A stretch of DNA of 64,000 nucleotides, taken from assembly GCF_009498295.1 (NCBI RefSeq), contig NZ_CP040813.1, positions 1,557,001-1,621,000 on the forward strand, written 5' to 3'. The stretch comes from Oceanihabitans sp. IOP_32. Its GTDB lineage: Bacteria > Bacteroidota > Bacteroidia > Flavobacteriales > Flavobacteriaceae. Every line of letters begins with the position of its first letter. The first letter of the stretch is position 1. A program made the position numbers and the translations under genes. The notes under the pieces were generated by a model that had not been told where the DNA came from, searched no databases, and was given only the letters and a program-made list of their open reading frames with translations. Positions 4,470-64,000 of the stretch are shown piece by piece.

Positions 4470-4477
4470 AATATAAG

Positions 4478-7740: not shown

Positions 7741-8088
<348 letters not shown>

Positions 8089-8100
8089 TTACAATCAGTT

Positions 8101-9021: not shown

Positions 9022-9025
9022 ATTT

Positions 9026-13522: not shown

Positions 13523-13581
13523 ATATTCTTTTTCCTTTAAATGTAAGTTGTTTTTATTTTCCGTATTGTGGTAATACTTAT

Positions 13582-13611: not shown

Positions 13612-13616
13612 CCTTA

Positions 13617-13687: not shown

Positions 13688-14044
13688 TTCCAGTTTTTTA
13701 AGTTTTACATTTATATTGTTTACCTGATTAATTTTAGACTAAAGCAGGTTCTATAATAGTATTTCCCGTAGCTTTACTGATAAATATAACCTTGTGAATT
13801 TTAAGCCAATGCTATAAAAATAACTTTTTTAGCTTAGGTAAGAAAAAATATCTTTAAATAAATGTAATTACATACAAATAGTTAAGTGTTATGGTTTGGT
13901 AGTAAACCGATAAAGTACAAATGTAAAATGTTTAGTTCTCGGCATAGGGTCGAGCTTGTTCAATGTAGAAAGTGTGGTGAATGCGGGTCTAAAAACTAGC
14001 AAATTACCGGCGTAAATTCTCAAATAGTACGCAAATATTCCGCA
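13688..14044. other. non-coding stretch between tracrRNA and tRNA-Ala
   Basis: 357 AT-rich bases. No convincing open frame, hairpin or promoter was seen. An 83-codon minus-strand frame (13889-14140) runs through the tRNA gene and is not real. Confidence 0.5.
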
Positions 14045-36416: not shown

Positions 36417-36548
36417 ATAACGGGCGTGTGTATGGTTAGTTGCGTGTTTAAGCAACTAATTTAGTAAACAAAAACGAACGCGAGAAAATTCCGAAGGAAT
36501 TTTCCAAATAAGCACTTGCCAAAGCAATTAAATATACACGTCTGTTGT
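36417..36548 (-). repeat. cassette-type nested palindrome after VIT gene
   Basis: Read on the minus strand: ACAAC core, then arm GACGTGTATATTTAATTGC, a 9-bp UUCG-loop hairpin (GAAAATTCC/GGAATTTTC), then the arm GCAACTAACCATACACACGC and CCGTTAT. The layout is the same as the elements at 55675, 57841 and 58665. The core TACACACAAC that precedes it is the exact reverse complement of the core at the other end of the VIT unit. Confidence 0.75.
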
Positions 36549-40378: not shown

Positions 40379-40441
40379 AGGACAAAGGTAAAAATTTTAC
40401 TCACACCTTGAATATGTATGTATTGAAGTATTTAAATTCTA

Positions 40442-41236: not shown

Positions 41237-41237
41237 T

Positions 41238-46849: not shown

Positions 46850-46850
46850 C

Positions 46851-49800
46851 TTATGCAAAAGTCTCGGTTAAGACTATTTTAGGGTCTTCAAATTGTCTGG
46901 TATTTTCTTTTTCTTCTTCCCAACGTAAGGCATCCATTCTTGCGATTTGCTTAATAGGATACTTGTTCATAATCGTATTTAATTCTGCGATGGTTTTAGC
47001 TAAAGTCATTTTACGTTTTTTCTGTTTTTGTCTTCGTGCTAATGCAGATATATCATTACGGAATTTTCTAAATACACCCATATAAATAATTTTTAGAGAG
47101 GTGTTTAGTAAATCTTCAAATTCATCAGATACTTCGTTAGGGAATGATTTTTTTAAGTCTATAATAGCTTTAAGGAACATTACCGAATTACGTTCTTGAA
47201 CCGAAAGGTTTGAAGTGTCGTATTCCTCAACACTAAACATTGTATTGTAAACTGTTTTAAAGTGCTTTATGGCATTGTTAACAGCATCGAAGTGATTATC
47301 TACTAACTTAACGGATTTCTCTTTTTTAAGTGCTTCAAAGAGTTTTACAGCTTGAATAAACGTAATTTCAACACATTGTTTTTCATTACTGATATAAAAA
47401 CTCTCTTTCATTTTGTTGCGTAGGTAACATAATGAAGCATTTTCTAATGTTTGGCCAATAACATCTTGAGCTATATCTGCTTTAATTTTAGCAATTCTAC
47501 CAACTCTACTTTTTATTGGTAGTTCTTTTAGTCGTTTATATTCTCTTGTATTATCTAAATAGAGTTCTCTTACTATTTCAAGATACTGTAGACGTTCATC
47601 TATTTCTTCTTTAGGTTGTAAATCACCTAATGTGTTATTAATGATTTCCTCTTGTTCAGAATATATTTTACTGTCTTCACCAAAAGCAGAATGGAAGCCT
47701 TGTAATTTTTTTAAGGCTTTTTCATTTAGTTTAATTAACGAATCTGATTGTGCAGTAGGATAAAAATTGTAAATCAGTATTTCTTTGGCTTTTGTACCAA
47801 TACGGTTAACACGCCCAATACGTTGCATTAAACGTGTTGCATTCCAAGGAATATCGTAATTAAGAATTACGTTACTACGATGCAAGTTGATACCTTCTGC
47901 CAATACTTCGGTAGTAATAATGATATTGTATTCGTTTTCTTGTTTACCTGGGTAATTTGCATCAAAGTTTTTACGAATGGTATTAAAACGCTTTTTGACG
48001 TTTGACGCACTAATAGCCATTACACCGGTACGACCAACTTTTTCTAATTCGTCTGCTAAATATTTTACGGTTTCTTTAGATTCTGAAAATATGACTAATT
48101 TTTTTTCAAGATTATCTTTATCAAAAAACACTTTATTTAAGTCACTAATAAACTTAACGATTTTAGGGTCTTCGTGAACAGCTTCCCACTTTGTAAATAG
48201 GTCATCAATAATTTCTTGGTCTCGCTTTAAGCCTTCTAATAATTCAGGTGAAAAATCTTCAGCTTTATAAATGGCATTATTAGGTGATTGCTCATTAAGT
48301 TCGTTTATTTTGTCTTCAATTTCATCTTCTTTACCTTCATCATAAAATTTATTGAGGTCTAAATCTGGTGCAACAAAAATCTTGTCATTTTCAAACATTT
48401 CAATCATTCGCTGATTGGAAGCTTGAAACCTTTTTAATGATTTTTTAAAGGCAAAGAAACTACTCTCCAAACGTTTTACCATTTGGGTTTTCATAATCAT
48501 TGCTAATTGCCTTGATATAAGCGTAGCGTTATCGTAAATATCTAAATACTCTTCATTAATAAACTCTATAGCACGGTAACGATAATAACCCACCCCATCA
48601 ATTAGATTGAATACTGTTTCATAAAAAAGACTATTTAGATTTTCATTAAAAGTATATTCTACCTTTTGTGGCGGTCTAATATCAGGAAAGGACATTCCTT
48701 GTGCATCTACGTCTTCTTTATATCGCTTGATGTTTTGAATATCTGCTCTTGTTCTACGAATTACTAATTCTGTAAAAATCTTATCTCTAATAGGTAGATA
48801 AATGTCTTTTACTTTTTGAACTAATTCTTTATGGTCTTTTACTTTATATAGTTGTTTGTAGGCTTCAATCTTTTTTGAAAAAAAGGTTTGAAGATTTGGT
48901 ACACCTTCAATAGTTGATTTTCTAGAGTCTTGAAATAAATATACTTGATTTGCTATATCATCAGGCTTATTATTAAGTGGTGTTGCCGATATAAGCATTA
49001 CCTTTTTCTTTCTGTTTATATCGTTACCGACCGAAATACGAGGTGTTTTACAAATTAACTCTAACAACCCATACATATTTGAAGTTCCAGATCTAAACTT
49101 ATGCGATTCATCGACTACAATTAAATCGTATTCTTCAGGATTATGATAGTTGATATTATCACCATCTATGATTTTATGTAAACTACCATTGGTTATAAAT
49201 TGTACATAATTAGTAATTCCAAAATCTTTAATCGTGTTTTTCCAGTTAGCTTCTAATGCATTTGGATATACCACTAATACTTTTGTATTATATCCGTTTT
49301 TATCTATATATCTTTTGATAATTCTTGAAGCCACAACTGTTTTACCCAAACCAACTACATCAGCAAGTATAAAACCGTTATGCTTCATTAATTTATCGAA
49401 ACCTTCTACAACAGCATCAGATTGATATTGTAAGTTGGTGTAACCATCTGGTAAATCTCTACTTGAAATTTTATCTCTAATAACCGCATCCCCAAAATAC
49501 TCTATCAGCATTTTTATATAGAGTTCGTAAGGTGTTATATCCTCATTTAAATAAGTTTTCTTTTTTAAGCCTTTTATGTCAACAGGTAATAATTCTGTAG
49601 ATTCTTCCCAAAGCTCTTCAAACTCTTTTGTAGCAAATACAACATCTTCGTAATCTTTAAGTAATACATTAAATTCGTAGTTAGATGATGCGTTTGAGCC
49701 TAAACCTGCATCCGTTAAATTAGATGAACCTGTAATAACACTACCGTTGGTATGTTCATTAAAAAGTTTTGGTCTGAAAATATAAACTTTAGCGTGTAGA

Positions 49801-50189
49801 TTTCTTTTACCGTGCGCTTTTATTGTTACCTTTTTTGTAATAATATCTTCAATAAATTGAATGATACCATTTTCAACGTCTTCACTATATTCAGCTTTAG
49901 ATATATCTTCTGAAACAAAGTTTATATATTCTTCTTTTGTATGCGTCGTGTTTTCTAAATAAAGTTGCCCTTTTTTTTGAGCTTCGTTTATTAAATCATC
50001 TACGTTGATTCCTACTAATATTCTAATTTCAGGCACATTGTCAAGTAGAGGTCTAATTTTAAAATATCCTGATGCTCTAAAATACCCTACGAGTGCATCG
50101 AAACTATGTATTGATTGGTTTTCAAATACACCCTTAAATTTATTTATTAAGTTGTTATTATTTTTATTAGTAAAAAACTTTGTTGACAT
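46851..50189 (-). CDS. SNF2-type helicase with N-terminal PLD nuclease-like domain
   Basis: 1112 aa. N-terminal phospholipase-D-like domain with HAKVYIF (HxK) and VITGSSNLTDAGLGSNASSNYEFNV near residue 155, one HKD half-site. The SF2 core follows: ILADVVGLGKTVVA (motif I, about 280), VVDESHKFR (motif II, about 361), MLISATPLNN (motif III), and the C-terminal lobe with VLAEGINLHRSNVILNYDIPWNATRLMQRIGRVNRIGT (motifs V-VI). First gene of the defence operon. Translocation on DNA plus a nuclease-like head fits restriction of unmodified invading DNA, with self-protection by the downstream methylase. Confidence 0.9.
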   Translation of the reverse strand: MSTKFFTNKNNNNLINKFKGVFENQSIHSFDALVGYFRASGYFKIRPLLDNVPEIRILVGINVDDLINEAQKKGQLYLENTTHTKEEYINFVSEDISKAEYSEDVENGIIQFIEDIITKKVTIKAHGKRNLHAKVYIFRPKLFNEHTNGSVITGSSNLTDAGLGSNASSNYEFNVLLKDYEDVVFATKEFEELWEESTELLPVDIKGLKKKTYLNEDITPYELYIKMLIEYFGDAVIRDKISSRDLPDGYTNLQYQSDAVVEGFDKLMKHNGFILADVVGLGKTVVASRIIKRYIDKNGYNTKVLVVYPNALEANWKNTIKDFGITNYVQFITNGSLHKIIDGDNINYHNPEEYDLIVVDESHKFRSGTSNMYGLLELICKTPRISVGNDINRKKKVMLISATPLNNKPDDIANQVYLFQDSRKSTIEGVPNLQTFFSKKIEAYKQLYKVKDHKELVQKVKDIYLPIRDKIFTELVIRRTRADIQNIKRYKEDVDAQGMSFPDIRPPQKVEYTFNENLNSLFYETVFNLIDGVGYYRYRAIEFINEEYLDIYDNATLISRQLAMIMKTQMVKRLESSFFAFKKSLKRFQASNQRMIEMFENDKIFVAPDLDLNKFYDEGKEDEIEDKINELNEQSPNNAIYKAEDFSPELLEGLKRDQEIIDDLFTKWEAVHEDPKIVKFISDLNKVFFDKDNLEKKLVIFSESKETVKYLADELEKVGRTGVMAISASNVKKRFNTIRKNFDANYPGKQENEYNIIITTEVLAEGINLHRSNVILNYDIPWNATRLMQRIGRVNRIGTKAKEILIYNFYPTAQSDSLIKLNEKALKKLQGFHSAFGEDSKIYSEQEEIINNTLGDLQPKEEIDERLQYLEIVRELYLDNTREYKRLKELPIKSRVGRIAKIKADIAQDVIGQTLENASLCYLRNKMKESFYISNEKQCVEITFIQAVKLFEALKKEKSVKLVDNHFDAVNNAIKHFKTVYNTMFSVEEYDTSNLSVQERNSVMFLKAIIDLKKSFPNEVSDEFEDLLNTSLKIIYMGVFRKFRNDISALARRQKQKKRKMTLAKTIAELNTIMNKYPIKQIARMDALRWEEEKENTRQFEDPKIVLTETFA

Positions 50190-50280
50190 TCAATAGTTGG
50201 TATTATGAAACCCTAAAAATATAAATATTTACGAGAACTTTATTAACAAAACCTTGCAAAGTTTGCAGACTCTGCAAACC

Positions 50281-52542
50281 TTACAAACTCTTTATTTTTT
50301 GATAATAACCTGCTTTAGGTTTAACTAAGTAGCCTGCTTGTTCTAGTTTTGCTAAATAATTATCTACCGTACGCTCTTTAATATTTAATTTACTGCCAAT
50401 AATTACTGCTTGTTTTCTGCTAAACTCTTGTGGTAATTCTTTTAAAAAATTAGCTTTTGGTGAAGTAGGTTTAAACTGCATATTTGTTGTGTTATTTGGT
50501 AAGTTTTTAAATACCAATATGCTGTGCTGCAAATAGACATCGGCTAATTTTAGTGCATTTTCAAAATCTTGGTCGGTACATTCTAAATCAGCTTCTTTTA
50601 ATTGGTATTCGTATTTTCTTATGGCTGTAAATATCATACAAAAACGAAATACCATTAAGCCTAAACGCTTTACTACACTTGTAGCATCTTTACTTACTAA
50701 ATTGTAAATTCTGAATAAATATTCATCAAACAACGGATTGAATTTTTCCCATTGTGCATCTGACAAATGAATATTAGTCACCGTATTATCTAAATATCTT
50801 ACCATACGATAGACTTCATCTGAAAGATGTTTAAAATGTTCGGTTAAATTAACTGGATTGGATTTTGGGGATGGGTCTAACCACTCTGGATTGGATGCAA
50901 ACACATAGAACATAAATCTACTAAACAAACCATCTTCTGCCGATTGTATGATGTTTAATATTTGATTAGGTGTACCAGAAAGCACCACCGACAATCTTGG
51001 GTTGTCGATTTCGAAATACTCGTTATTAGTTTTTCTTGAAATGGATATTTTTTCGTGATGGTAAGCCTTTCGTAATAAGTCTGAGTATGAACCCCAATCG
51101 TTTTTAAAGGTTTGCCCTAAAGTATCTGCTTCGGTTTCGCACATAATACCAAATCCCTCGTTATCCTCGATATGTTTTATCATTTTAGCATTACTTGTAT
51201 TTGCAGGAATGTAAACCACTTTAAAAGGTGGTTGCGTTGGCTCTTCTGGTGGTTCTTCCCCTTTTTTAAGATACTTTTTAGCTTGCTTTTGCGCTTCTAA
51301 TTCTTTTTTATAATCTGCTTCTTCATCTTTAGAATTTTGAATTACTGCTTGATGATATTTATCGGCTAACATTTTGGCGTATGTTAACGCTCCTTTTCCA
51401 GAAGCTGCTGGTGCTAACAAAAATGAAAATAAATTGGGATAGACTTCTTTACCACCGTACAAGCCTAAAACATTAGGTAAGCAACCTGATAGAATACTTA
51501 ATGCTCCTGTAAGAAATACATCTTTTTCGCGTTGGGTTTTTAGTACTTCAATCCCTTTTTGAAATATTATAGGTAATGAATTATATACGTCTTCTGGAAC
51601 AGTTGGCGTAGTTGTTAAAAGTGATAAACTTTCTAAGTTTTGGTTGTCTTGATTTTGTACTTCTTCTGAAACTGTAGCGTTTGCAAATTTTGCAAACTTT
51701 GCAAAGTCTGCATTGTTGCTTTTATAAGCACTTCTAACCGTTGTTTTTATTTCTTTTTCTGATAAATCGAAATTTGCAATACAGTATTGGTAAACATCTT
51801 CTTCTATAACTCCAAATCTACAAGCGTTTGCTGAAAATAGATATATGTAGTTATTTCTGTTTCCTTCGTGATACTCGACTTTTTGATTGGTAAACGCTTC
51901 GCATTTATTTAGTATTTCTACAATAGATAATTGTTGATGATTATTAGTATTAGCATCACTTTCTGTTATTGTTTGTTTTTCTTCTTCTTGGATTTCAAAA
52001 ATTGTTGCTTCTGTATTGATATAGCAATTTTCGTCGTAAGACATAAAACACAATCTTGCATAGTCGCTTCCAGAAGTATCTACTACCGTATTTAATGCTT
52101 GTTCGTAATAATCTACTACTTGATTGTAAACCGTTTTATGTTGCTCTACATTTGAATTTACACGTACTATAAACTTCACCCCTTTACCTCTTGTGCTAAT
52201 AAAACAGGCATAGGTATATGGTGCTACATTTATAACAGGAATGATACGATTAAGTTCTGATTCTGATAGTTTATCAATGTCTAGAATTATAAATTGTGTG
52301 TAAACTTCAAGGTTTTCACTACTTCTATAATTATCGAATACTCCAGATGCAGTAAATCCTAATAGTTGCTTTTTTAGGGTTTCGGCTTCTTCTTCTTTAC
52401 CTAAAGACATTAAGTGTCTTATTTTGTTGATTTCGGTTTTATAAGTGCCTGTTTTGATATTATTAAGCACTTCTACTAAAGGTTTGTCTGAAACCTTATA
52501 TACAAAGTCTCTAAAGACTGATACAGCTGCTGTCATCTCCAT
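50281..52542 (-). CDS. DUF3987 protein with VirE-type primase-like N-terminus
   Basis: 753 aa. The N-terminal ~170 residues have the BT4734/VirE-like layout (FTASGVF ... YTQFIILDIDKLSESELNRI ... KGVKFIVRVN). The C-terminal part is DUF3987 with the P-loop-like SFLLAPAASGKGALTYAKML (about residue 380) and a PRLSVVLSGTPNQILNIIQSAEDGLFSRFMFY helicase-like core. It ends in a short winged-helix (NFLKELPQEFSRKQAVIIGSKLNIKERTVDNYLAKLEQAGYLVK). Such proteins replicate or mobilise Bacteroidota elements. 11 bases after the HTH gene, in the integrase-side operon. Confidence 0.85.
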   Translation of the reverse strand: MEMTAAVSVFRDFVYKVSDKPLVEVLNNIKTGTYKTEINKIRHLMSLGKEEEAETLKKQLLGFTASGVFDNYRSSENLEVYTQFIILDIDKLSESELNRIIPVINVAPYTYACFISTRGKGVKFIVRVNSNVEQHKTVYNQVVDYYEQALNTVVDTSGSDYARLCFMSYDENCYINTEATIFEIQEEEKQTITESDANTNNHQQLSIVEILNKCEAFTNQKVEYHEGNRNNYIYLFSANACRFGVIEEDVYQYCIANFDLSEKEIKTTVRSAYKSNNADFAKFAKFANATVSEEVQNQDNQNLESLSLLTTTPTVPEDVYNSLPIIFQKGIEVLKTQREKDVFLTGALSILSGCLPNVLGLYGGKEVYPNLFSFLLAPAASGKGALTYAKMLADKYHQAVIQNSKDEEADYKKELEAQKQAKKYLKKGEEPPEEPTQPPFKVVYIPANTSNAKMIKHIEDNEGFGIMCETEADTLGQTFKNDWGSYSDLLRKAYHHEKISISRKTNNEYFEIDNPRLSVVLSGTPNQILNIIQSAEDGLFSRFMFYVFASNPEWLDPSPKSNPVNLTEHFKHLSDEVYRMVRYLDNTVTNIHLSDAQWEKFNPLFDEYLFRIYNLVSKDATSVVKRLGLMVFRFCMIFTAIRKYEYQLKEADLECTDQDFENALKLADVYLQHSILVFKNLPNNTTNMQFKPTSPKANFLKELPQEFSRKQAVIIGSKLNIKERTVDNYLAKLEQAGYLVKPKAGYYQKIKSL

Positions 52543-52553
52543 AAGGTTTTAGG

Positions 52554-52847
52554 TTAATAATTGTTTCTTTTGGTAGTGAATGCTTTACGGTAGTTATTGT
52601 CTAATAACTTTTGCACGTCACTCATACGATAATAGATTTTTGAACCTATTTGTGAAAAAGAAATAACGCCTTCATCCCTCCAGGTTTGCGCTGTTCTTTT
52701 GCTAATATTCATTAGCTGAAGAAATTCTTGATTGTCTAGAAAAGTATCCTGAGGATTTTTCTGTTTCTCTTCTAGTTTTTTGTTTAGCTCGTCTAAACGG
52801 TTTACTAAGTCTGTGTACTGTTGCGTACTTAAAATAATTGCTTCCAT
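52554..52847 (-). CDS. helix-turn-helix protein, excisionase-like
   Basis: 97 aa. MerR/excisionase-type winged HTH typical of Bacteroidota elements: FLQLMNISKRTAQTWRDEGVISFSQIGSKIYYRMSDVQKLLDNN (about residues 41-84), preceded by a coiled-coil helix (LVNRLDELNKKLEEKQK). Likely controls excision or the DUF3987 gene downstream. Confidence 0.88.
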   Translation of the reverse strand: MEAIILSTQQYTDLVNRLDELNKKLEEKQKNPQDTFLDNQEFLQLMNISKRTAQTWRDEGVISFSQIGSKIYYRMSDVQKLLDNNYRKAFTTKRNNY

Positions 52848-52942
52848 TTGGTATGCATTTTAAAATTTATAATACCGCAAGAAGTCATTATTGATAGGGT
52901 GCTAAAAGCACCCCCTTATAAAACCCTTATAATGAATAAAAT

Positions 52943-54280
52943 TTAGTGCAAAGGGTTCCTTTTTATATAATCTAAAGCATCATTTAAATAATCTTCTGAT
53001 ATATTTGAAGCATCTAATTCTGATTTTAATTCGAGATTTATTTTTTCGGCTATTACATTACAAAGTGTTGCTAAGCCTATGTTAGGTATAATTCTTTTTT
53101 GTTTTAATGCCTCTACTACTCCACGAAGAGCACCTTTTTTTCTAGGTGTTAAAACAGATTTACCTTCTACAGTTATACTTAAATCATTTAATATTTGCAA
53201 TACATATTCTTGAACTGCTTTATCCTTAATGATGGTATAAAAATCTTGTTTAACATCTTCCTTTTTTACAGGTAAAGCTTTAATATCATCTTTTATTTCA
53301 TTGATAAAACTCTTTTCATTGTTTAACCAAGCTTTTATTGTTTTTATATATTCTTTCTCGTTTTTAGTAGGTTTTTCTAATAATGTTTTTTGATTTAGTG
53401 AGTGCGCTTTCTTTTTTAAATCAAAAGCATATTTTTTACTATCTGTGATATATTCATTTTCTAATAATTGCGTTGTATCAATACTTAGTAAAATATGGTT
53501 TGTTATGTTAGATAAGTTTTTTAATAATTGTGCTTGAGTTAATAACTCTACTTTTGCTGTACCTAAGTAAGGGTTTGTTTTAGGTTTTTCTGCTAAAACA
53601 GGAAGTGTTCTGGAAAAGTGTTTTTTGAGATTAGTAAACATTGCTATTTCAAAAGGAAAAAATTTGTACCATCTATCATAAGTACTCAACAATAAATTAA
53701 AATCTTTCTTTCCTTTTCCTTTAGGTTTAAAAAAATTTGTGATTGTATCTATAACCTTTTCTTGTCTAGGTTTATACTGTGCATCTTTACCAACTAACGT
53801 ATGGTTAAGTTGCATTCTTTTTGTGTAATCCATAAACCAACTTAGTGCTGGTGGTTCTCCGCAATTTTCTGGTGTTTGACCGAAACTTGTAACAGCATAT
53901 TCTAAATAATTATATATTTCTTCCTCCCAATTGTCTTGATCTAAATTATTTAATATATGATGATGTGTGTAGATGACTTTATCGGCTACCATTTTAGCTA
54001 GGTCTTTAAAGTCATCACTTTTAAACAAACTGTGCTTTTTTAAATTCTTATGTCTTTCACAACAGTTTGGAAAGTCTTTAAAATAATCTCCTACTTCTTT
54101 TAGTATTTTTTGATGTGTGTTTTTACAGCCTTCACAATTATCAAGGTTATGTTCTGGATTTGGGAAATATTGAATAGGAAAAGGCTTTTCATATGCAGAA
54201 CCTTTAAGGTAAATCATTTCGGAACCACAAACATCATATTTCTGCATTCCTGTAACTAAAAAATGAGGATTTCTATTCAT
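52943..54280 (-). CDS. hypothetical mobile-element protein with Cys pairs
   Basis: 445 aa. Not recognised. The N-terminus has cysteine clusters that could bind zinc (MQKYDVCGSEM, NLDNCEGCKNTHQ, FPNCCERHKN, within residues ~15-75). The rest is helical and lysine-rich, with DFYTIIKDKAVQEYVLQILNDLSI and a closing helix (EDYLNDALDYIKR). Its start codon lies one base after the integrase stop codon, so the two are co-transcribed; a role in integration or element regulation is inferred from position only. Confidence 0.7.
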   Translation of the reverse strand: MNRNPHFLVTGMQKYDVCGSEMIYLKGSAYEKPFPIQYFPNPEHNLDNCEGCKNTHQKILKEVGDYFKDFPNCCERHKNLKKHSLFKSDDFKDLAKMVADKVIYTHHHILNNLDQDNWEEEIYNYLEYAVTSFGQTPENCGEPPALSWFMDYTKRMQLNHTLVGKDAQYKPRQEKVIDTITNFFKPKGKGKKDFNLLLSTYDRWYKFFPFEIAMFTNLKKHFSRTLPVLAEKPKTNPYLGTAKVELLTQAQLLKNLSNITNHILLSIDTTQLLENEYITDSKKYAFDLKKKAHSLNQKTLLEKPTKNEKEYIKTIKAWLNNEKSFINEIKDDIKALPVKKEDVKQDFYTIIKDKAVQEYVLQILNDLSITVEGKSVLTPRKKGALRGVVEALKQKRIIPNIGLATLCNVIAEKINLELKSELDASNISEDYLNDALDYIKRNPLH

Positions 54281-54281
54281 A

Positions 54282-55499
54282 CTAATTAATATATTTATCT
54301 ACTGCGTTATCTAATTCACTACCTATTATTTTTGCATATACTTGTGTTATACCAATATCTGAATGGTCCATAAGTTTAGAAACGTGTTCTATACGCATAC
54401 CATTGTTTAAAGCTCTAGTAGCAAATGTATGTCGGCTTATATGGAAAGATAAATTAAACGGTAGTTCTAATTGTTTTCCTATCCTGCTTAAATACATATT
54501 ACTCAATGAAATTGCTCTATTGGTTATTAAACTTCTGTGTTCTCTATCTTTAAAATATAACTCGTCAATTTTTGCAAAAGGAAAAATTATATGATTTTGC
54601 TTTTGGTCTTTGGTTTTGTATTTCTCTAGAATATCAACCGCTTTTTGACCTATTTTAATACTGTGCTGTCTTTTCGTTTTGCGAATCGTTTTTGTGATTC
54701 TATGATTTTTACTATCGTAGTTTTTCCATTGTAATTCGATAACATCGCCAAAACGTAACCCACCAGAAAAAACAGAAAAGATAAACATATCTTTGATAAC
54801 CTGTGCTTTATGTTCTTGTGGTACTTCTAAATTGATAAAGGCTTCAAATTGTTCTTCGTTTAAATAACGCTTTGTAGTCTTGTTTTTCTTTACTTTAAAC
54901 TTTGTGAAAGGTGCAAGTTCATTAGATATTAAATCTTCGCTTTTAGCCTCTCTAAACATTAAATTTAGGATTCTAAACGCATAATTTATAGTCGTGTTAT
55001 TGTTTCCTAATTTAGAGCTGCAATGTGAAGCATAATTTTTTAGGGTTGTTGCTGTAATATCATCAAACATTATTTCACGATGCCCTATAAACCTTTCAAA
55101 CTTTTCGATATTGTTTTTATAACTCCTGTAAGTAGATAGCGTAACAGTATCTTTAAGCTTCTCGCATCTATCATAAGCAAACTCAAAAAAGTTAATTAAG
55201 GGTTTACCCTTAATAGCTTCTTTTATTCTTCTTGCTGATGTAGATTGATTTCTTCTTTCAAGGTCTGCAATCTCGCCTTCTGCATCTGCTATCTTTCTTG
55301 ATATGTATGCATTTAATCTTGTAGAGCTTTTATGATTCTTCTTTACTTTTTGCTTATCTTCATCCCATTCATTAGGCTGTAATTTTACACTTAATGAAAT
55401 GAATTTAGTTTTTCTGTTTTTGATTACTCGCAAATAAAGCGGTGCAAGTCCTGCTTTATCTATCTTGTTTTTTCTTAAAACTACTTTAATTGAAGACAT
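54282..55499 (-). CDS. tyrosine-type site-specific integrase
   Basis: 405 aa from the ATG at 55499 (start MSSIKVVLRKNKIDKAG, the usual Arm/SAM-like start in Bacteroidota); an ATG 69 bases upstream adds only a hydrophobic, unlikely leader. Catalytic residues: Arg in SGGLRFGDVIELQW (about 245), Lys in the beta-hairpin (IRKTKRQHSIKIGQ), HISRHTFATRALNNG (His-x-x-Arg) and Tyr in HSDIGITQVYAKI. Belongs to phage/conjugative-transposon integrases, not to the integron IntI class (no IntI-specific insertion seen). Adjacent to the right attachment-site candidate. Confidence 0.93.
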   Translation of the reverse strand: MSSIKVVLRKNKIDKAGLAPLYLRVIKNRKTKFISLSVKLQPNEWDEDKQKVKKNHKSSTRLNAYISRKIADAEGEIADLERRNQSTSARRIKEAIKGKPLINFFEFAYDRCEKLKDTVTLSTYRSYKNNIEKFERFIGHREIMFDDITATTLKNYASHCSSKLGNNNTTINYAFRILNLMFREAKSEDLISNELAPFTKFKVKKNKTTKRYLNEEQFEAFINLEVPQEHKAQVIKDMFIFSVFSGGLRFGDVIELQWKNYDSKNHRITKTIRKTKRQHSIKIGQKAVDILEKYKTKDQKQNHIIFPFAKIDELYFKDREHRSLITNRAISLSNMYLSRIGKQLELPFNLSFHISRHTFATRALNNGMRIEHVSKLMDHSDIGITQVYAKIIGSELDNAVDKYIN

Positions 55500-55622
55500 A
55501 AAACTCTGGTTTTTAGGCTGTGCAATTGGGTGCAACGTGTTACTAAGGTACAACAATAGGTACAACAAACCTAACTTTTAGTAGCATTTTATTGCATTAA
55601 TTTGCTTTGATTAAAAACATAA

Positions 55623-55674: not shown

Positions 55675-55809
55675 ACTATATAACAATGTATAACCGCAAT
55701 TACGGCGGATTCGACTACGTCCGAATCCACTCGGAATTGCTAACGTCAGTGCTAAACCGAAAAATTTGCGTACTTTAACCCGTAACTGACGGTTATACGA
55801 GACCGTTGT
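55675..55809 (+). repeat. cassette-type nested palindrome 1 (attC-like)
   Basis: Left arm AACAATGTATAACCG (55682-55696) faces CGGTTATAC-GAGACC-GTTGT (55790-55809). An inner hairpin is made of GCAATT/AATTGC and GGATTCG/CGAATCC. The left ~70 bases are almost identical to the element at 58665. The core GTTGTGTTTC that closes it (55805-55814) opens the next unit and reappears inverted at 57835-57845. Confidence 0.8.
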
Positions 55810-55839: not shown

Positions 55840-57828
55840 ATGATAGTAGAATTTCTTGGACAAGGTTTACACTTCGAAGAAGATGAAACGTGCGGAAATC
55901 ACGTTTGTTCTGCTATTCAAGAAAAGTCATTCACGCAAATTACCTTTTTTATTGCTTTTTTGAGAAAACCCGGTTTAGACTATTTAAAACCTTTTTTAGA
56001 ACAAGCAAAAAATGAAAACAGAAACATAACTTTTTATGTCGGAATTGATGAAAGAGTTACTTCTAAAGAAGCTTTAGAATTATTACTCGAACTAGAAATT
56101 GAAACTTACATCTACTTTTCTGAAAGGTTTATCTATCACCCAAAAGTTTATTTGTTTGAGGGAGAAAAAAACAGAATCATAACTGGCTCATCTAATCTCA
56201 CAAAATCAGGACTTTTCTACAACGTTGAGTCTTCAATTCTTTTAGATTTCACAAATAGCGATAAAAGTGGATTAAAAGTTTTGAAACAATTAAAAGAATT
56301 CTATTCCACGTTATTAGATTTCACAGACCCAAATATTGAACTTTTAACGAATGAATATTTAGAAAAGTTAATTAAGGAACAAAGAGTTTCGACAGAAGCT
56401 TTTTCTGATGGTTCTGACTATAATTCAAATATTCACGACAAATCAAAAAAGAGAGGCAGAAATCCAGAAATTACAGATTTAGGAAATATTGAAATAACAG
56501 AAAAAAGACCTGTCAAACAATATAAATCCATATTGAAAATCACAGATGAATATCTAGAGAAATGGGATTTTATGTTCCTAAAAATGGAACGCTTTTATAC
56601 AGAAAATGAACATTGTACTGTTCCGAGAGATTATAAAGACAGAACACTTTATGGATGGTATAGGAAACAAAAATCATTACACCAAGCCGAATTATTACCT
56701 GATGAGCATTTCAAAAAATTAAAAAGCATAAATTTCTATTTTGGAGATGGACATACAATATTTTGGGATAGAAAATGGATGAATAGCTACAATCAACTTT
56801 TAGAAATATATAAAGAGACTGGAGATAGCAATATAAAAAGATATAAAGATAATACTCATCCTCTTTTTTACATTTCTAATTGGGTTGCACTCGAGAGAGG
56901 AAAATATAAAAAAGGCAAGCTAAAAGATTGGCAAATTGAAAAGTTGGAAAGCATTGGTTTTAAATGGGTAATGACACGTACACCAAATAATTACAGAGTT
57001 GTAGATGATTGGTTAGACAAACTTGCATTACTAGAAGACTATAAAAAAGAATTCGGAGATTGTAACGTTTCTCAAAATAACAAAAACCCAAAATACAAAG
57101 GACTCGGAAAGTGGCTTAATGACCAAAGGTTCAACTATAAGAAAAAAAGAAAAATCCTAACAAAGGAGAGAATCGAACTTCTTGAAGACCTTGGTGTAGT
57201 ATGGGATATGGATGTTTACAAATTTGACCAAAAAATATTAGAATTATTAGAATACAAAAAGACACACGGAAATTTTGAAGTTCCTTCTAACTACAAACCA
57301 AACAAGAATTTTGGGAATTATATTTATAGAATAAGAACGAAAGGTCTTAAAGAAGATTGGAAAATCAAAAAACTACAAGACATAGGATTCTTTGAAATTG
57401 GTACTCGAACTAAAAAGGAAAAAGAGGGACACGTTACTCAAAATTGGTATAATAATCTTGAAAAACTGAAAAAACTATCGAATCCTAATTTGCCAAAAGA
57501 CAGTAAAGAATATCCCAAACTTGCTAAATGGTTGCATAATCAAAAAAGAACTTTTAGATATGGCAGATTGAAAGATGAACAAATAAAAGAGTTGAAAAAA
57601 CTAAATGTAAAACTTCCTGCAAAAAGTAAAAAAAGAAAAAAATGGGAAGAATATATTGAAATTATTGAGTTATTCAGAGAGGAATATGGAGACAAAAAAA
57701 TAACATCTGAATTTGATAAAGAACTTTACGAATGGATAAACCAACAGAGAGCAAATTATAAACACAAGAGTTTAAGACTTGAAAAAGTAGAAAAATTAAA
57801 GGAATTGAATATCTTACAAACTGAATAA
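55840..57828 (+). CDS. PLD-domain protein with six helicase-associated repeats
   Basis: 662 aa. Residues ~1-160 are a phospholipase-D/HKD nuclease-like domain with HPKVYLF (His100, Lys102) and ITGSSNLTKSGLFYNVES (about 114-131). A ~70-residue charged linker follows, then six Helicase-associated (HA) repeats at about 241-299, 309-375, 389-455, 462-517, 534-592 and 601-657. Each has an aromatic start (W/Y at the repeat head), a middle LGKWLNDQR-type segment and an IxKLxxIGF end. HA repeats normally follow an SF2 motor; no motor is present here, so the repeats probably serve as DNA-binding arms for the nuclease-like head. It is the sole gene of a cassette-like unit (55805-57845). Likely defence-related by architecture; not proven. 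Confidence 0.85.
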   Translation: MIVEFLGQGLHFEEDETCGNHVCSAIQEKSFTQITFFIAFLRKPGLDYLKPFLEQAKNENRNITFYVGIDERVTSKEALELLLELEIETYIYFSERFIYHPKVYLFEGEKNRIITGSSNLTKSGLFYNVESSILLDFTNSDKSGLKVLKQLKEFYSTLLDFTDPNIELLTNEYLEKLIKEQRVSTEAFSDGSDYNSNIHDKSKKRGRNPEITDLGNIEITEKRPVKQYKSILKITDEYLEKWDFMFLKMERFYTENEHCTVPRDYKDRTLYGWYRKQKSLHQAELLPDEHFKKLKSINFYFGDGHTIFWDRKWMNSYNQLLEIYKETGDSNIKRYKDNTHPLFYISNWVALERGKYKKGKLKDWQIEKLESIGFKWVMTRTPNNYRVVDDWLDKLALLEDYKKEFGDCNVSQNNKNPKYKGLGKWLNDQRFNYKKKRKILTKERIELLEDLGVVWDMDVYKFDQKILELLEYKKTHGNFEVPSNYKPNKNFGNYIYRIRTKGLKEDWKIKKLQDIGFFEIGTRTKKEKEGHVTQNWYNNLEKLKKLSNPNLPKDSKEYPKLAKWLHNQKRTFRYGRLKDEQIKELKKLNVKLPAKSKKRKKWEEYIEIIELFREEYGDKKITSEFDKELYEWINQQRANYKHKSLRLEKVEKLKELNILQTE

Positions 57829-57840: not shown

Positions 57841-57967
57841 ACAACAATGGCTATAAGTAATTGCTTGCTCTCGCCTACTTCTGAAAATCCTCGCGGATTT
57901 TCAGCTTGGTGTGTACTTGCAAAGTTAATCGCTAAACCACGCAACTACTCATAGCCGAGACCGTTGT
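57841..57967 (+). repeat. cassette-type nested palindrome 2 (attC-like)
   Basis: ACAACAATGGCTAT faces ATAGCC-GAGACC-GTTGT (57953-57967), with an inner perfect 9-bp hairpin TGAAAATCC/GGATTTTCA (57880-57902 region). It starts 12 bases after the PLD-HA stop codon. The closing core GTTGTAAAAC (57963-57972) reappears inverted at 58660-58669. Confidence 0.85.
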
Positions 57968-58003
57968 AAAACATTTAAGACCTAAATTTTGCAACATAAG
58001 AAA

Positions 58004-58654
58004 ATGAATTTCGTCTTTAAAAAAATAGAATTTATGGGAAAATTAATTTTGACTTTGACATTAGCATTGTTTACATCAATAGCTTTTGCGACTGAAATTG
58101 TAGCGACTATTGTATTTGAAAACTTAACAGAAAGAGAATTAGAATCAGGAAAATTTACAATTATTGACCTGAATAAAAAAATTGAGATTTCTAAAGCAGA
58201 AAACTTTAAAATCACTTTGCCAAAAAAAGGAAAATATCAATTCAGTTTTGTATCGGATAATTTTACCGCTTATACTTTTTATCCTGCACGAATTAATAAA
58301 AGGAATAACACCATCACAGTTCGATTAATGGAAAAAAAGGAAATAAAGAAAGGTGGAATTTATTCATTCCCGATGAATTTAGAAACTGACTTGAGTGATG
58401 AGCAAATTGAACTACGAATTGAAAACGAAACTCTGAATTTCATAATGCACGGAATTGATAGTTCTATACCAAAAGAATATGTTGATTTTAAGGAAAAATA
58501 CGGGATTGGACTTATCAAAGAAAACTGTGTAATTGACCCTTTGTCTTTCAAAAAAGCAACCGAGAATAATCAAATGATTTTTGATTTTTTAAACAAAAAA
58601 TATGGAACAGAATGGCAAGAAGAATTGAAAACAAAACCATTCGGAATAAAATAA
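58004..58654 (+). CDS. small exported hypothetical protein
   Basis: 216 aa from the ATG at 58004; an ATG at 58034 gives a shorter signal peptide (MGKLILTLTLALFTSIAFA) and is equally possible. After the signal the first ~95 residues read as a beta-sandwich like a carboxypeptidase-regulatory domain (VATIVFENLTERELESGKFTIIDLNKKIEIS ... LPKKGKYQFSFVSDNFTAYTFYPARI). The C-terminal half is helical, with KEYVDFKEKYGIGLIKENCVIDPLSFKKATENNQMIFDFLNKKYG. Unknown function, periplasmic. Sole gene of the cassette-like unit 57963-58669. Confidence 0.7.
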   Translation: MNFVFKKIEFMGKLILTLTLALFTSIAFATEIVATIVFENLTERELESGKFTIIDLNKKIEISKAENFKITLPKKGKYQFSFVSDNFTAYTFYPARINKRNNTITVRLMEKKEIKKGGIYSFPMNLETDLSDEQIELRIENETLNFIMHGIDSSIPKEYVDFKEKYGIGLIKENCVIDPLSFKKATENNQMIFDFLNKKYGTEWQEELKTKPFGIK

Positions 58655-58664: not shown

Positions 58665-58793
58665 ACAACAATGTATAACCGCAATTACGGCGGATTCGAC
58701 TACGTCCGAATCCACTCGGAATTGCTAACGCCAGTTCTTAACCGAAAATTTTTAACTTTAATCCCGTAACTGACGGTTATACAAAACCGTTGT
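58665..58793 (+). repeat. cassette-type nested palindrome 3 (attC-like)
   Basis: ACAACAATGTATAACCG faces CGGTTATAC-AAAACC-GTTGT (ending 58793), with the same inner hairpin as element 1 (GGATTCG/CGAATCC). It starts 10 bases after the stop codon of the exported protein. The core opening the next unit is GTTGTATGCA (58789-58798). Confidence 0.85.
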
Positions 58794-59044
58794 ATGCAAG
58801 GCTAAAAGACCGAATCGAAAATCGAAACCCGATTATAAAAATTGAAAAACTGGAAAGTAAATATCGTCACATTGATTGAAAGTTGGTGCAAGAAAAATTT
58901 AGTTTTTGCCCCCGCGCTTCTGCCCTTCGGGACAGTTAGGGAAGCCCACGCACATTGCACACATTTGCAAATCGCACAGGCTAACGCACAAACCAAAATT
59001 TGCAAAAGAGTGCAATTTTTGCCAACGCTCAAAAAGAATCGCAC

Positions 59045-62000
59045 ATGAGAGATTTTGAGGTTTGGAAATCATATATAGATGCTTTAGATATACTGACTAA
59101 TCAATATTCAGAGCCCTTCGACATTAAGGTATTGGAGGCTAAGAATGATTCGTCTGTTGTTTGTAGATATATTGATGCCAATCAGAAGGATAAAATATTT
59201 GAAGGTTTATTAAAGGTATTTCCAAGTTTAAAGAAAGAGAATCTTAATTATCATGATAACCACCTTTTATATCCATCATCCGAGGCAATAAATAATTCTG
59301 AAATTGAGGATTTAAAGTCCTTTGCTGATTCAAACCATTTTGAATTTTCATCAAAGCCAGCTTTCTCGGGAACTTTCAAATATAATAAGACACCTTTAAT
59401 TGATTTTTTAAAAGAACATGTCGTAAAAGAAGAAGCTCAACCACAAGAGAAGACTTTAGCCCATCACATTAGAAGAGTTTATCCTAGCTCCACATATAAG
59501 GAGAAAAACAATGGGAAAATTGTGGTATTGGATGAAACCTATCTTCAAAGTAAAACACTAGAGGTATGGGGCGAAAACTATTCTGTTGAATACTTACTTT
59601 CTGTAAAAGGAATTTCAACACCAATCCAAATTTCACTTGCTTCCGATAAGGTTGTAGATATCACTCATTCCAAGAAAAGAAACAAGATTAATGTCAGGCT
59701 ACACGAGAAAATTAGTGAAGCTGAAATAGGAGAAATTAGAACAAAGCTAATTGAAATATTAAATGATGAAATTGGTAGGGTTCCCGAAATAAGTCTCAAT
59801 ACTGTTTTTACCCAAACTAATTTTAGTAGTCAGCCTAGAACAAAAAAAGTACCGGTAAAACAAAATCTTGGTAAAACCCAATTTCTAACACTCGATGAAT
59901 TAGAAAATATTGATTCAGTACTGGAATCTAGTCAAGACGTTTTTAGAGAAGAAAACCTAGGTGCTATCTCAAAAATTGACGTTAGTGAAAGCTTTATAAA
60001 TAAGCAATTTGATATTGCAGTAAAGTATCTAAAGGAACATATTGGATTAGATCCTTACAAGGTAGAAGGTTTCTTTAAGCAAATCCATTTAAAGGATGTA
60101 TTTCTAAAAAAGGAAGTGTTTGAAGCTTTTCAGGAAAACACCTTCTATTCAAATTCATTTCATCTCGTTTCTTATACAATTACTCCGGATGAATTTGACA
60201 AATTTGAACAGATTAGAAAACAAAGAAAGATCTATTACAAATCTGAAGACAGACCTAATCTTGAAGGTGTAATATTACCAAATCCAGATAACAATATTTT
60301 CATCCAAACCTTTTCTGCATCCATTTCATTAAGTGACTTGCAATTTGAAATCTTCTTTTTTCTAAATACCCTCAAACGATATTTTGGAAAAGAACATATA
60401 CAGATTGTTCATGAACACATTTTTAGAATTGATAAACAAAGGTTCTTCGAACATATTAAAGAAGTTATTCCTTTTGAAGAATTTCAAATAAGTTCAGATG
60501 CAGAGACTATTTCATTCGATTTTAAAACGAAGGAGGAACTAGATGAAAAACTACAAAAGTTAGACACATATGATTCTTTGAACTATTTAGGCTTTAGAGA
60601 CGATCACAAATACAAAGTAACTTTTGGCAACATCACTCCATTAGTCCAAGTCAAGGAAAAATTGGATGAGTTAGTTTTTGTCAAATCGGCATTAAATGAA
60701 TCTAGAAACGAATTACGGGTTTTTGGTTTAATGAGGACACTTGATGACTTAGAAATTTTTAAAGCTAGAATCATTAACTCCGCAGGAAATTATAGCGAAA
60801 AAAATATCACTTTAAACTGGGAAAGTTTAGATGAAGGTTACTTAAAATACTACTTCCAATTTGATGAGGAAAGTTACAAGGAGGAGGTACATAAAAAGTT
60901 AGACAATCTTAGAGGTGAACCATTAACTCTTGTTGATTCAAAGGAGACTTTGGGTATTTTAAAATCCATTTCATATCCCAACTTGACTATTCTAGCAGAA
61001 GAGAAAAGCCTTCTTGAAGAAGGGTCTTATCTAACAGTTAAAAGTGCCTTAAAGGGAGAAAAAGATAAAGTGAAGCGATTAAGAGATGCTGTTGAGAAAA
61101 TATATTCTGATTCAGGAAACTCAATTTGCAACAAGAATCTTAAACAAGCCTTGATTGATTCATCCTCATTGGAATCTTTTATTGATGGAGACATTACTCG
61201 TACTAAAGAATACCAGGAATTATATCAAAAGGTAAATGGTGACTTATTAAGTCCTTATGTCAATGAAAGACAAAAGGAAGCGATCGTAAAATGTTTATTA
61301 AGCGATGATTTATTTATTGTTCAAGGACCACCAGGAACCGGTAAATCAACTGCTATTGCAGAACTTATTTGGCAACATTTAGCACATGATGAAAGCGATA
61401 AACGATACAGGATATTAGTTACTTCTGAAACCAACTTAGCCGTTGATAATGCATTGGATAAGCTCAGAAGTAAGTCACACCTGTTAATGAAACCTATACG
61501 ATTTGGTAGCGAGGAAAAACTTGACGATGAAGGAAGAAGATTTTCTTTGGAAGCGATTAACTACTGGAAAAATGATGAATGGGAAGCTGATAGTTCTTTA
61601 ATTTTAGATGACTGGGTTGATATCGTTAATAACCGGTGCACAAACCAAAGTAACGATACGTTTATTACACTTTGGAAGGAGCATTTAGAAGAGAAAGGAA
61701 AAGATCTTAGAGATAATTTCTATTCTTCTTATGTGAAGAACTGTAACGTAATTGGAGCTACTTGTAGTTCAATTGGGAAAATAAATTCTGAAGGTAAGTT
61801 TACTCGGTTTTTTCAAGATTACTCCAATGTTTTTTATCCTGATGAGTTTGAGAGATTTAAGTCCTCTCCAAGTAGGTCGTCTGCCACTAATCTTAAAAAC
61901 AAAGAGATTGAATTTGAATTAGCTATTCAGGATGAGGCTTCTAAGGCTTCTCCGCCCGAATTGGCACTCCCTTTCACCTTTGGGAAAAAAGCTGTGATTA

Positions 62001-62959
62001 TTGGAGATCATAGGCAATTACCTCCAATGGTTGATACCAACGAGTTTATCGAAAGTTTGGTTTATCTAAAGAATAAAAGCAAGGACGATAAACAAGTAAA
62101 GAAAATCACCGAGCTTATTCGCTTTATAAAGCAGCATAGAGAAAGTTTTGAGCATTCACACTTTGAAAAACTCTTTACAAATATTGATGCTAATCTCAAA
62201 TCAACATTCGATACTCAGTATAGGATGCATCCAGCCATTAATGAAACTATCAAACAATTCTATAAAGGTGATTTCGAGAATGGAAAAGATTTAGAATGTG
62301 GACTTCCATCGGATTCTGTGGATGATCCGAATCTCAACAACCCAATGTCTAGATACCACGGTATCACTAAGAAAAAGGATACGCACGTAATGTGGTTTGA
62401 TGTACAAACTCCGGAAATTAAGAAAGGGACAAGTAGAATCAATCCTGGAGAAGTTAAAGCAATTGAATGGATAATTAATACCATAACTTCAAATGATAAT
62501 TATTCAACATTCATCAATCATTGGAAAGAGAATGAGAAGGATCAAAAGGAATTAGGTGTTATTACTTTTTATGGTGCTCAAGCCGGGCTAATAAAGAAAA
62601 ATGTTCCTGAAGGTATTGATGTTAGAGTGTCTCCTGTTGATAGATTTCAAGGAATGGAGAGAAATATCGTCATAGTATCTCTTGTAAGAAGTAATAATAT
62701 CGCTGAATCAGAAAATGTAATAGCAGATTTTGAGATGTATCCTGAAAATGGGTATGCACAAAATGAAAGTCTTGGTTTTGCTGAATCTCCTAATAGATTA
62801 AACGTTGCCCTTTCCAGAGCTAAACGTCTTTTAATCGTGGTTGGAAATTCTAAACATTTCAGTAAAAAGGAAATCTATAAGAATGTTTTTGAAACAATAA
62901 AGAATCATCCTCAAGGAGAAGTTTGGGGCTTTAATGGTCAAAAACCTATTAAAATTTAG
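59045..62959 (+). CDS. large SF1 (Upf1/AAA_11-12 type) DNA/RNA helicase
   Basis: 1304 aa from the ATG at 59045; the ATG 45 bases upstream is unlikely. The N-terminal ~750 residues are unassigned alpha/beta. The helicase core follows: Walker A IVQGPPGTGKSTAIAEL near residue 761, ETNLAVDNALDKLR (motif Ia), IQDEASKASPPELALPF (motif II, about 960), IIGDHRQLPPM (motif III), STFDTQYRMHPAINE (motif IV), SPVDRFQGMERNIVIVSLVRS (motif V) and NRLNVALSRAKRLLIVVGN (motif VI). All motor motifs are intact. The ~250-base leader (58794-59044) is GC-richer than its surroundings and has no gene. One base separates it from the downstream gene, so the two form a pair; defence role inferred from context. Confidence 0.88.
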   Translation: MRDFEVWKSYIDALDILTNQYSEPFDIKVLEAKNDSSVVCRYIDANQKDKIFEGLLKVFPSLKKENLNYHDNHLLYPSSEAINNSEIEDLKSFADSNHFEFSSKPAFSGTFKYNKTPLIDFLKEHVVKEEAQPQEKTLAHHIRRVYPSSTYKEKNNGKIVVLDETYLQSKTLEVWGENYSVEYLLSVKGISTPIQISLASDKVVDITHSKKRNKINVRLHEKISEAEIGEIRTKLIEILNDEIGRVPEISLNTVFTQTNFSSQPRTKKVPVKQNLGKTQFLTLDELENIDSVLESSQDVFREENLGAISKIDVSESFINKQFDIAVKYLKEHIGLDPYKVEGFFKQIHLKDVFLKKEVFEAFQENTFYSNSFHLVSYTITPDEFDKFEQIRKQRKIYYKSEDRPNLEGVILPNPDNNIFIQTFSASISLSDLQFEIFFFLNTLKRYFGKEHIQIVHEHIFRIDKQRFFEHIKEVIPFEEFQISSDAETISFDFKTKEELDEKLQKLDTYDSLNYLGFRDDHKYKVTFGNITPLVQVKEKLDELVFVKSALNESRNELRVFGLMRTLDDLEIFKARIINSAGNYSEKNITLNWESLDEGYLKYYFQFDEESYKEEVHKKLDNLRGEPLTLVDSKETLGILKSISYPNLTILAEEKSLLEEGSYLTVKSALKGEKDKVKRLRDAVEKIYSDSGNSICNKNLKQALIDSSSLESFIDGDITRTKEYQELYQKVNGDLLSPYVNERQKEAIVKCLLSDDLFIVQGPPGTGKSTAIAELIWQHLAHDESDKRYRILVTSETNLAVDNALDKLRSKSHLLMKPIRFGSEEKLDDEGRRFSLEAINYWKNDEWEADSSLILDDWVDIVNNRCTNQSNDTFITLWKEHLEEKGKDLRDNFYSSYVKNCNVIGATCSSIGKINSEGKFTRFFQDYSNVFYPDEFERFKSSPSRSSATNLKNKEIEFELAIQDEASKASPPELALPFTFGKKAVIIGDHRQLPPMVDTNEFIESLVYLKNKSKDDKQVKKITELIRFIKQHRESFEHSHFEKLFTNIDANLKSTFDTQYRMHPAINETIKQFYKGDFENGKDLECGLPSDSVDDPNLNNPMSRYHGITKKKDTHVMWFDVQTPEIKKGTSRINPGEVKAIEWIINTITSNDNYSTFINHWKENEKDQKELGVITFYGAQAGLIKKNVPEGIDVRVSPVDRFQGMERNIVIVSLVRSNNIAESENVIADFEMYPENGYAQNESLGFAESPNRLNVALSRAKRLLIVVGNSKHFSKKEIYKNVFETIKNHPQGEVWGFNGQKPIKI

Positions 62960-62960
62960 T

Positions 62961-64000
62961 ATGCAAAGTATTTCTATCATTGAGCCAATAAAAATTAGAC
63001 TTAGGAGATATAAGAGTCTTTTTAGGCGTGCTTTGCCTTTGGAAAAACATGAGAAGGCAATTTTAGGATTGATTTACCAAAATAATGGTGATTATGGATT
63101 CAGTGAGCTCGGTACTGTTTTAGGATTTGCTGTTGAAGATAATCCAGAACTTCAAGTGCGAAAAGATGTTGCAGAAATACAACTATTTGAATCATACCTT
63201 GAAAACCTAAAGTCCAATGATTTGATCGACTACAACAACCAAAGTGTTCGATTAACTTTTTGGGGTGAGAAAGCAATAAATGACGATTGTAAATATTCGT
63301 TTTACTCAGGAAACCTTCAAATTCCGGAGTTTTTTGATATTGCGCTCTCTAATGAAGCATCTGATTTTACATTTAAAGAAATTGGTGTTGAAGTTAAATT
63401 AACAAATGAGCAGAATCTAAATAAGGCTTGGGACTTAGCCGAATTTGAAGCTCCAGACCCTAATCTCATCCACCAGTTCCATATGAATAGGTTTAATAAA
63501 AATGATGAGATAATATTCGATAATATTGAGCCACTATCAAACTTAGGGTTGATAGAGACATATTTAGAATTTTCAGAAAGAAACAGTTCTATTGAGGTTT
63601 TATATGAGTCTAAGCTTCATGAACAATTATCAAAGGAAATAAATAAAACTCCGAACACGTTAAAAGCGGATAATCTCAAATTAAAAATTAATTGTAAGAA
63701 ATTGGTTGAAGCCAAAGAAGCTTTTTTAATTGAAGATTTAGCTGATTTTATCGCAATTGTTGATTGGAGTATTGTTATTGAAAAACCAAATATTATATGG
63801 AACAATAGCTCTATTGGTTTTTTAGATAAATTTCAGGTCAATTGGAACCTAATAAGTTCAAAGGCTCCTGTCTCCATAATTCAAGATGCCATAGATGACT
63901 ATATTGATAAATTTGATTGGCTTGAAGTAACCAATCGTCTGAATCTTGAATTTATACTTGCAAATATTGACAAGTATCCTTGGGATGTAGATGTTTTAAC
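62961..64000 (+). CDS. partner protein with repeated W-rich motif (3' end beyond window)
   Basis: At least 346 aa, open to the window end. Starts MQSISIIEPIKIRLRRYKSLFRRALPLEKHEKAILGLIYQ, with a winged-helix-like N-terminal part up to about residue 110 (SDLIDYNN-type wing, VRLTFWGEKAI). From about residue 255 a repeated pattern appears: hhDWSIVIEKPNIIWNNSSIGFLDKF, QVNWNLISSKAPVSII, FDWLEVTNRLNLEFILANIDKYPWD. This is the W-x-x-h(T/S) repeat seen in some long bacterial and viral repeat proteins. Co-transcribed with the helicase (one-base gap). Function unknown; the full length and number of repeats cannot be seen. Confidence 0.75.
   Translation, partial: MQSISIIEPIKIRLRRYKSLFRRALPLEKHEKAILGLIYQNNGDYGFSELGTVLGFAVEDNPELQVRKDVAEIQLFESYLENLKSNDLIDYNNQSVRLTFWGEKAINDDCKYSFYSGNLQIPEFFDIALSNEASDFTFKEIGVEVKLTNEQNLNKAWDLAEFEAPDPNLIHQFHMNRFNKNDEIIFDNIEPLSNLGLIETYLEFSERNSSIEVLYESKLHEQLSKEINKTPNTLKADNLKLKINCKKLVEAKEAFLIEDLADFIAIVDWSIVIEKPNIIWNNSSIGFLDKFQVNWNLISSKAPVSIIQDAIDDYIDKFDWLEVTNRLNLEFILANIDKYPWDVDVL

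Follow-up and report, generated by a model that had tools for sequence, protein, structure and literature searches.

The window analysed here, a 64,000-nucleotide stretch (G000:C1:1557001-1621000) of the complete 3.48 Mb genome of Oceanihabitans sp. IOP_32, contains a defence island and, beyond it, an array consisting, in order, of a cassette for a protein that joins a PLD nuclease domain to helicase-associated (HA) repeats (PLD-HA), a cassette whose short product has a signal-like start, and a third one approximately 10.9 kb long. The features are:

39494-55568, minus strand: neighbouring defence island, with its own integrase
46851-50189, in the minus-strand island: PLD-SF2 helicase (Pfam, PADLOC)
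55682..55807, minus strand: attC-like site preceding the PLD-HA cassette (E 1.5e-19; one of the sites used to train the model)
55840..57828, plus strand: PLD-HA gene, ATG start, 662 aa, sole gene of its own cassette
55840..56334, plus strand: N-terminal PLD nuclease domain, residues 1-165, BfiI/NgoAVII/SauUSI type (structure-database searches, Pfam)
56137..56196, plus strand: HKD half-site H100-P-K102-x4-E107 and G116-S-S-N119 (alignment)
56563..56736, plus strand: HA repeat 1, residues 242-299 (own HMM)
56776..56961, plus strand: HA repeat 2, residues 313-374 (own HMM)
57010..57198, plus strand: HA repeat 3, residues 391-453 (own HMM)
57226..57390, plus strand: HA repeat 4, residues 463-517 (own HMM)
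57439..57609, plus strand: HA repeat 5, residues 534-590 (own HMM)
57643..57813, plus strand: HA repeat 6, residues 602-658 (own HMM)
57843..57965, minus strand: attC-like site belonging to the PLD-HA cassette (E 6e-24; also used to train the model)
57989..58654, plus strand: second cassette, an open reading frame whose short product has a signal-peptide-like start; ends GTTGTAAAAC / GTTTTACAAC
58667..58791, minus strand: attC-like site of the second cassette (E 8e-18; outside the training set)
58791..64000, plus strand: start of a third cassette (approximately 10.9 kb in all), which encodes an SF1 helicase along with DarT-domain and DarG-like macro proteins and ends outside the window, at G000:C1:1626667
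59000-62959, in the third cassette: MkoA-like (Mokosh-type) SF1 helicase

An earlier sequence-only reading of this DNA had described a PLD domain joined to six HA repeats with no helicase, and domain searches bear this out. The Pfam model PLDc_2 matches residues 74-136 (3e-7, exceeding its curated cut-off), HA (PF03457) matches six stretches far over its own (1.5e-63; 211 bits against 28.4), and no helicase domain, including the DEAD/ResIII and Helicase_C motor, is detected by Pfam in the 662-residue protein. Single repeats were placed with an HMM built in this analysis, which recognizes all six at E <= 5e-15 each. The HKD half-site proposed at H100-P-K102 and GSSN 116-119 is also present, the sequence running H100-P-K102-V-Y-L-F-E107 and then G116-S-S-N119; it is the only PLD half-site in the protein, and across the 13 PLD-HA proteins aligned, the H and K of the motif are conserved without exception, as are the S and N of GSxN. 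The HA region carries a net charge of +29 (pI 9.6). HA-domain proteins are usually joined to an SF2 helicase or stand alone; in contrast, the repeats are here fused to a PLD nuclease domain, and the motor of SF2 helicases with HA repeats is lacking. No PADLOC model covers the PLD-HA fusion, DrmC (1.4e-6) and ZacB (2.5e-5) being weak PLD matches. DISARM is not matched, since DrmC gives only that weak similarity and neither DrmA nor DrmB is in the same operon; nor is Mokosh, with no match to the Mokosh PLD protein and no MkoA in the same operon, and in both comparisons PLD-HA stands alone in its cassette. A literature search whose scope lay mostly outside subscription journals yielded no description of PLD-HA proteins; in the literature searched, the binding target of HA repeats is not established.

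A further 12 PLD-HA proteins lack the motor and have open frames; they come from Flavobacteriaceae, in forms with six, three or two repeats, and the relatives that have named records are Flavobacteriaceae. Three are intact orthologues of 661-662 aa: L008, from an Aequorivita MAG (92% identical), L009, from Mariniflexile gromovii (77%), and L010, from a Mesonia MAG (78%). A fourth orthologue (L011) is frameshifted. Divergent motor-less relatives from other genera span 507-693 aa and include a six-repeat protein of 37% identity (L002), proteins of 518-568 aa with two or three recognizable HA repeats (L038, L041-L046) and a 507-aa protein with three (L047), while a further relative (L003) is broken by one in-frame TAG. 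The two broken genes fit cassette turnover, but also dispensability. The four closest PLD-HA genes are under strong purifying selection, with a whole-gene dN/dS of 0.07-0.12 and constraint on the PLD and the HA parts alike. Such proteins are uncommon: of 397 family genomes, 19 match the profile at all, some of them by PLD or HA alone. The phage sequences searched gave no match, and no relative turned up in viral contigs, where the queries were alignment A1, a sister restriction enzyme and three proteins of the PLD-HA or sister kind; among the plasmid matches listed, the HA part alone was matched, and none covers 80% of the query.

The sequence-only reading would have been overturned if homologues had always proved to be fragments of longer helicases, and the idea of a remnant, in which a PLD-helicase-HA protein lost its motor, draws on the fact that HA repeats are known as helicase add-ons and on the presence in the family of a helicase-HA protein with an 1183-aa open frame (L052/L057). 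However, the homologues include intact motor-less orthologues in other genera, the linker between PLD and HA is common to independent orthologues, the ends of the gene are those of its cassette, and selection is purifying at the dN/dS values given above; these observations refute the helicase-fragment reading, and we grant a remnant almost no weight.

In a tree of PLD domains, 12 PLD-HA proteins form one group (95/99), separate from the sister proteins described below. L047 lies outside this group on a very long branch, in an unsure placement, and because of this position the PLD-HA fusion probably arose twice. The L047 gene (1480-3003, minus strand) encodes this probable second fusion, whose PLD domain is very different, and has cassette ends too; unlike that of the window protein, its HA region is not basic. 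The Pfam model NgoFVII matches L047 and L038 over its cut-off, and the window protein under it (0.0029).

Among solved structures, BfiI (2c1l, 8.7e-5) is the only relative of the full-length protein in a single-sequence search, and a family profile recovers BfiI (4e-9), SauUSI (9e-8) and R.NgoAVII (6e-4). By this similarity, the PLD domain can be assigned to the BfiI/NgoAVII/SauUSI-type nucleases. The protein resembles BfiI, R.NgoAVII and R.CglI in having an N-terminal PLD domain with one HKD half-site and a C-terminal, putatively DNA-binding part, but it carries HA repeats instead of B3 and has neither a methyltransferase gene nor a partner ATPase gene. In R.CglI and R.NgoAVII the PLD domain is joined to a B3 DNA-binding domain (PMC5737866, PMC7913695), so that the HA repeats occupy the place of the target-recognition domain. 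SauUSI, a type IV PLD-helicase-SRA enzyme that is active without a cognate methyltransferase, carries its motif in the H(X)K(X)4E form, as PLD-HA does, and forms a BfiI-like dimer (PMC7913695); in contrast, PLD-HA possesses no helicase motor and no SRA-like domain, and nothing in it points to methyl-cytosine recognition.

Sister proteins of approximately 400 aa (L004, L006, L048-L050) combine the same PLD domain with a non-HA C-terminus, and their genes adjoin Eco57I-type methyltransferase genes, most of them also an XRE gene, in an arrangement that looks like that of restriction enzymes. These neighbours lend some force to the possibility that PLD-HA supplies the restriction activity of a classical type II system, in which the HA repeats would recognize a fixed sequence and the host would be protected by a solitary methyltransferase encoded elsewhere in the genome. 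However, homologues with the same domain order, which the sequence-only reading had suggested seeking out together with their gene neighbourhoods, were found in cassettes without a methyltransferase gene at every PLD-HA locus read, so that the adjoining cognate methyltransferase of type II restriction-modification is absent, and a mobile nuclease whose partner stays behind would kill new hosts. We therefore regard a type II role as distinctly unlikely.

The unit that holds the gene had been described as cassette-like with PLD-HA as its sole cargo, and its boundaries agree with this: it lies between the sites at 55682-55807 and 57843-57965, with a third site at 58667-58791. The start codon falls approximately 30 nt past the upstream inverted-repeat site, and the gene stops just short of the next. 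The cassette begins at the 3' GTT of the upstream site, after the G (G, then TTGTGTTTC), the fold being on the minus (bottom) strand. A common rule applies to these units: the sequence that follows the 5' GTT is complementary to that preceding the unit's own terminal AAC (G, then TT...AAC). For the PLD-HA cassette, the start GTTGTGTTTC is complementary to GAAAACACAAC, which precedes the site at 57843..57965; the corresponding pairs are GTTGTGCAAC/GTTGCACAAC in the L009 cassette and GTTAGGGGC/GCCCCTAAC in the L041-L043 cassettes, and the ends of the third cassette in the window are complementary as well. Such complementarity is seen in 10 of 11 unlike cassettes, and none of 100000 shuffles scored as high, in a hand-picked set for which this is not a strict probability. 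Furthermore, homology between the window, L008 and L011 starts and stops at the cassette ends, with unlike flanks.

The sites themselves are approximately 123-125 nt long, with paired outer arms and unpaired spacers of unequal size. In all 21 sites the bottom strand folds more stably; on that strand 221 of 221 cells are paired (100%), with double changes at nine pairs and a covariation score of 0.461, against 0.110 +/- 0.024 for shuffled sites. At two pairs, most or all of the sequences have G-U, for which the top strand would have C-A mismatches. Such folding is the behaviour expected for attC sites. Rfam gave no match at the sites. Taken together, the ends and the sites support the identification of the unit holding the PLD-HA gene as an integron-type gene cassette. 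Like the gene cassettes of sedentary chromosomal integrons, it has one gene, a tiny leader, a 3' attC-like site, complementary ends and a bottom-strand fold; in contrast to these, some cassettes here carry whole operons, and the sites are of near-uniform length. Integrons are listed for Bacteroidota (PMC8618304), and a passage of PMC12444791 that cites 2025 papers notes defence genes in cassettes of Vibrio and of mobile integrons. A further attC-like site in the window (36419-36546, E 2.5e-14) has the opposite orientation and lies directly behind the gene of a 238-aa membrane protein (36560-37276, minus strand).

The neighbouring island does contain a helicase with a PLD domain (46851-50189), as the sequence-only reading had noted, but the tie that it drew between this island and the PLD-HA gene is weakened: the gene travels alone at other loci, and since the island has an integrase of its own and is encoded on the other strand, adjacency offers no evidence of joint function. 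Also in the island, a DUF488 protein (39494-40378) gives a full-length match to the PADLOC candidate PDC-M19A (1.6e-127). The third cassette (window 58791-64000 and L093 1-7667) encodes the MkoA-like SF1 helicase, a 1948-aa DarT-domain protein and a DarG-like macro protein. That a MkoA-like helicase lies two cassettes downstream of the PLD-HA gene raises the issue of whether the latter could be a subunit of a multi-part machine using a helicase in trans, as R.CglI/R.NgoAVII do with their H subunit, or as DrmC of DISARM or the PLD partner of a Mokosh-type helicase would; R.NgoAVII and R.CglI indeed pair their PLD-B3 protein with a separate SF2 ATPase (PMC5737866). Such a partnership seems unlikely, given that the SF1 helicase of the window sits in its own cassette with DarT/DarG-like genes and that no adjacent helicase gene is present in L009, L011, L071, L072 or the read flanks of L041-L045.

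A covariance model built from 13 sites detects co-oriented arrays outside its training loci (L085, L086, L087, L072 and most of L071). In L071, a recombinase gene (1403-2470, minus strand) is followed divergently by a cassette for a 213-aa protein and then by a broken PLD-HA cassette; in L072, a recombinase gene (1851-2975, minus strand) is followed by a two-gene cassette and then by an intact 568-aa PLD-HA, which is thus the second cassette behind a divergent recombinase at both loci. In L008, the PLD-HA gene lies directly behind another such recombinase, in the same orientation. A tandem array headed by a recombinase is the arrangement at L071, L072 and most recombinase loci fetched; no recombinase of this type lies next to the array of the window, and the window recombinase at 54282-55568 was set aside as a candidate, being an integrase of the Arm-DNA-bind_5/SAM_5 type. 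Between attC-like sites, L085 carries a type IIG enzyme (3352-6357) and L087 a multi-gene stretch (5784-13785) with AbiEii toxin, GHKL ATPase and Eco57I-type methyltransferase genes.

The arrays resemble integrons in being tandem and co-oriented with a divergent recombinase, but the recombinases fall under the IntI cut-off, scoring 185-203 bits with TIGR02249 against a threshold of 265 (IntI1, 508), and lack approximately 44 alignment columns relative to IntI1, corresponding to the IntI-specific I2 insertion. Canonical IntI above the cut-off was found in none of nine genomes. I2 is reported to be found in IntI alone and to be required for the capture of cassettes (PMC7790495), so that this is either an integron-like system without I2 or an array served by another, true recombinase. 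Eight close relatives of the L071 recombinase occur in 149 family genomes, and seven of the eight fetched loci have sites nearby at E <= 0.05, one of them weakly. By the covariance model, 54 of 60 sampled Flavobacteriaceae genera and 39 of 118 genomes of a sample of the phylum have sites; genomes with sites thus outnumber those with close relatives of the array recombinase, which leaves room for the second alternative. The genome of the window holds 35 sites, nearly all in five clusters (1226-1248, 1612-1627, 1765-1774, 2683-2722 and 2934-2945 kb). Closely similar tyrosine recombinases of approximately 298 aa lie within attC-like clusters of this genome (G000:C1 1241725, 2683883, 2688108 and 2933380), as would copies of an insertion element that either targets such clusters or spreads along with them. 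The literature search, again mostly outside subscription journals, found no description of I2-less integrons or arrays in Flavobacteria.

The linkage of PLD-HA to arrays at nearly every locus with readable ends, and the occurrence of its HA partner elsewhere as a helicase add-on, could be taken to indicate a non-defensive function, as a nuclease of recombination, repair or cassette mobility, or as a domesticated DNA-binding protein. However, PLD-HA is present in a few per cent of family genomes and sites in nearly all sampled genera, a disparity which implies that the arrays do not need it, and its closest kin are restriction enzymes; a function of this kind is highly unlikely.

The explanation that we favour, and consider reasonably probable, is that the locus is a single-gene integron-type cassette for a motor-less, dimeric PLD nuclease, aimed by its HA repeats and acting on its own, in the manner of a type IV-like restriction enzyme or as an anti-phage effector. 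Two PLD domains would dimerize and share a single HKD active site, as they do in SauUSI and in BfiI, which needs no metal, and the basic C-terminal HA repeats would form a DNA-binding array that replaces the B3-type target-recognition domain, binding DNA and selecting the target. The nuclease would then cleave DNA unlike that of the host, either modified or unusually structured, although the nature of this target is a guess; it would be something absent from host DNA, since a mobile nuclease without a methyltransferase must spare new hosts. A modification- or structure-dependent activity is thus the form of restriction or phage defence that we favour. Because only 30 nt precede the start codon, transcription probably proceeds from a promoter upstream, and a recombinase acting on the folded attC-like sites would move the cassette between arrays.

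Should the nuclease reading be true, HA repeats would be a target-recognition module that can replace the DNA-binding domain of a restriction enzyme in the absence of a motor, and the variation in their number (6, 3 or 2) would make the recognition rule testable. Comparison of the loci suggests that PLD-HA may travel among related bacteria as a portable defence against invading DNA. Of the two results, that on the cassettes and their arrays is the larger and the more surprising. If it holds, integron-type capture would be widespread in a family where it has hardly been described, and would proceed without the I2 helix, held to be necessary and unique to IntI (PMC7790495). In its broadest form, to which we give an even chance, the proposal is that Flavobacteriaceae possess a family-wide integron-like system, with an I2-less recombinase and strand-biased folded sites, that stockpiles genes and defence operons, and whose recurrent cargo includes a new architecture of stand-alone, DNA-targeting nuclease, PLD-HA.
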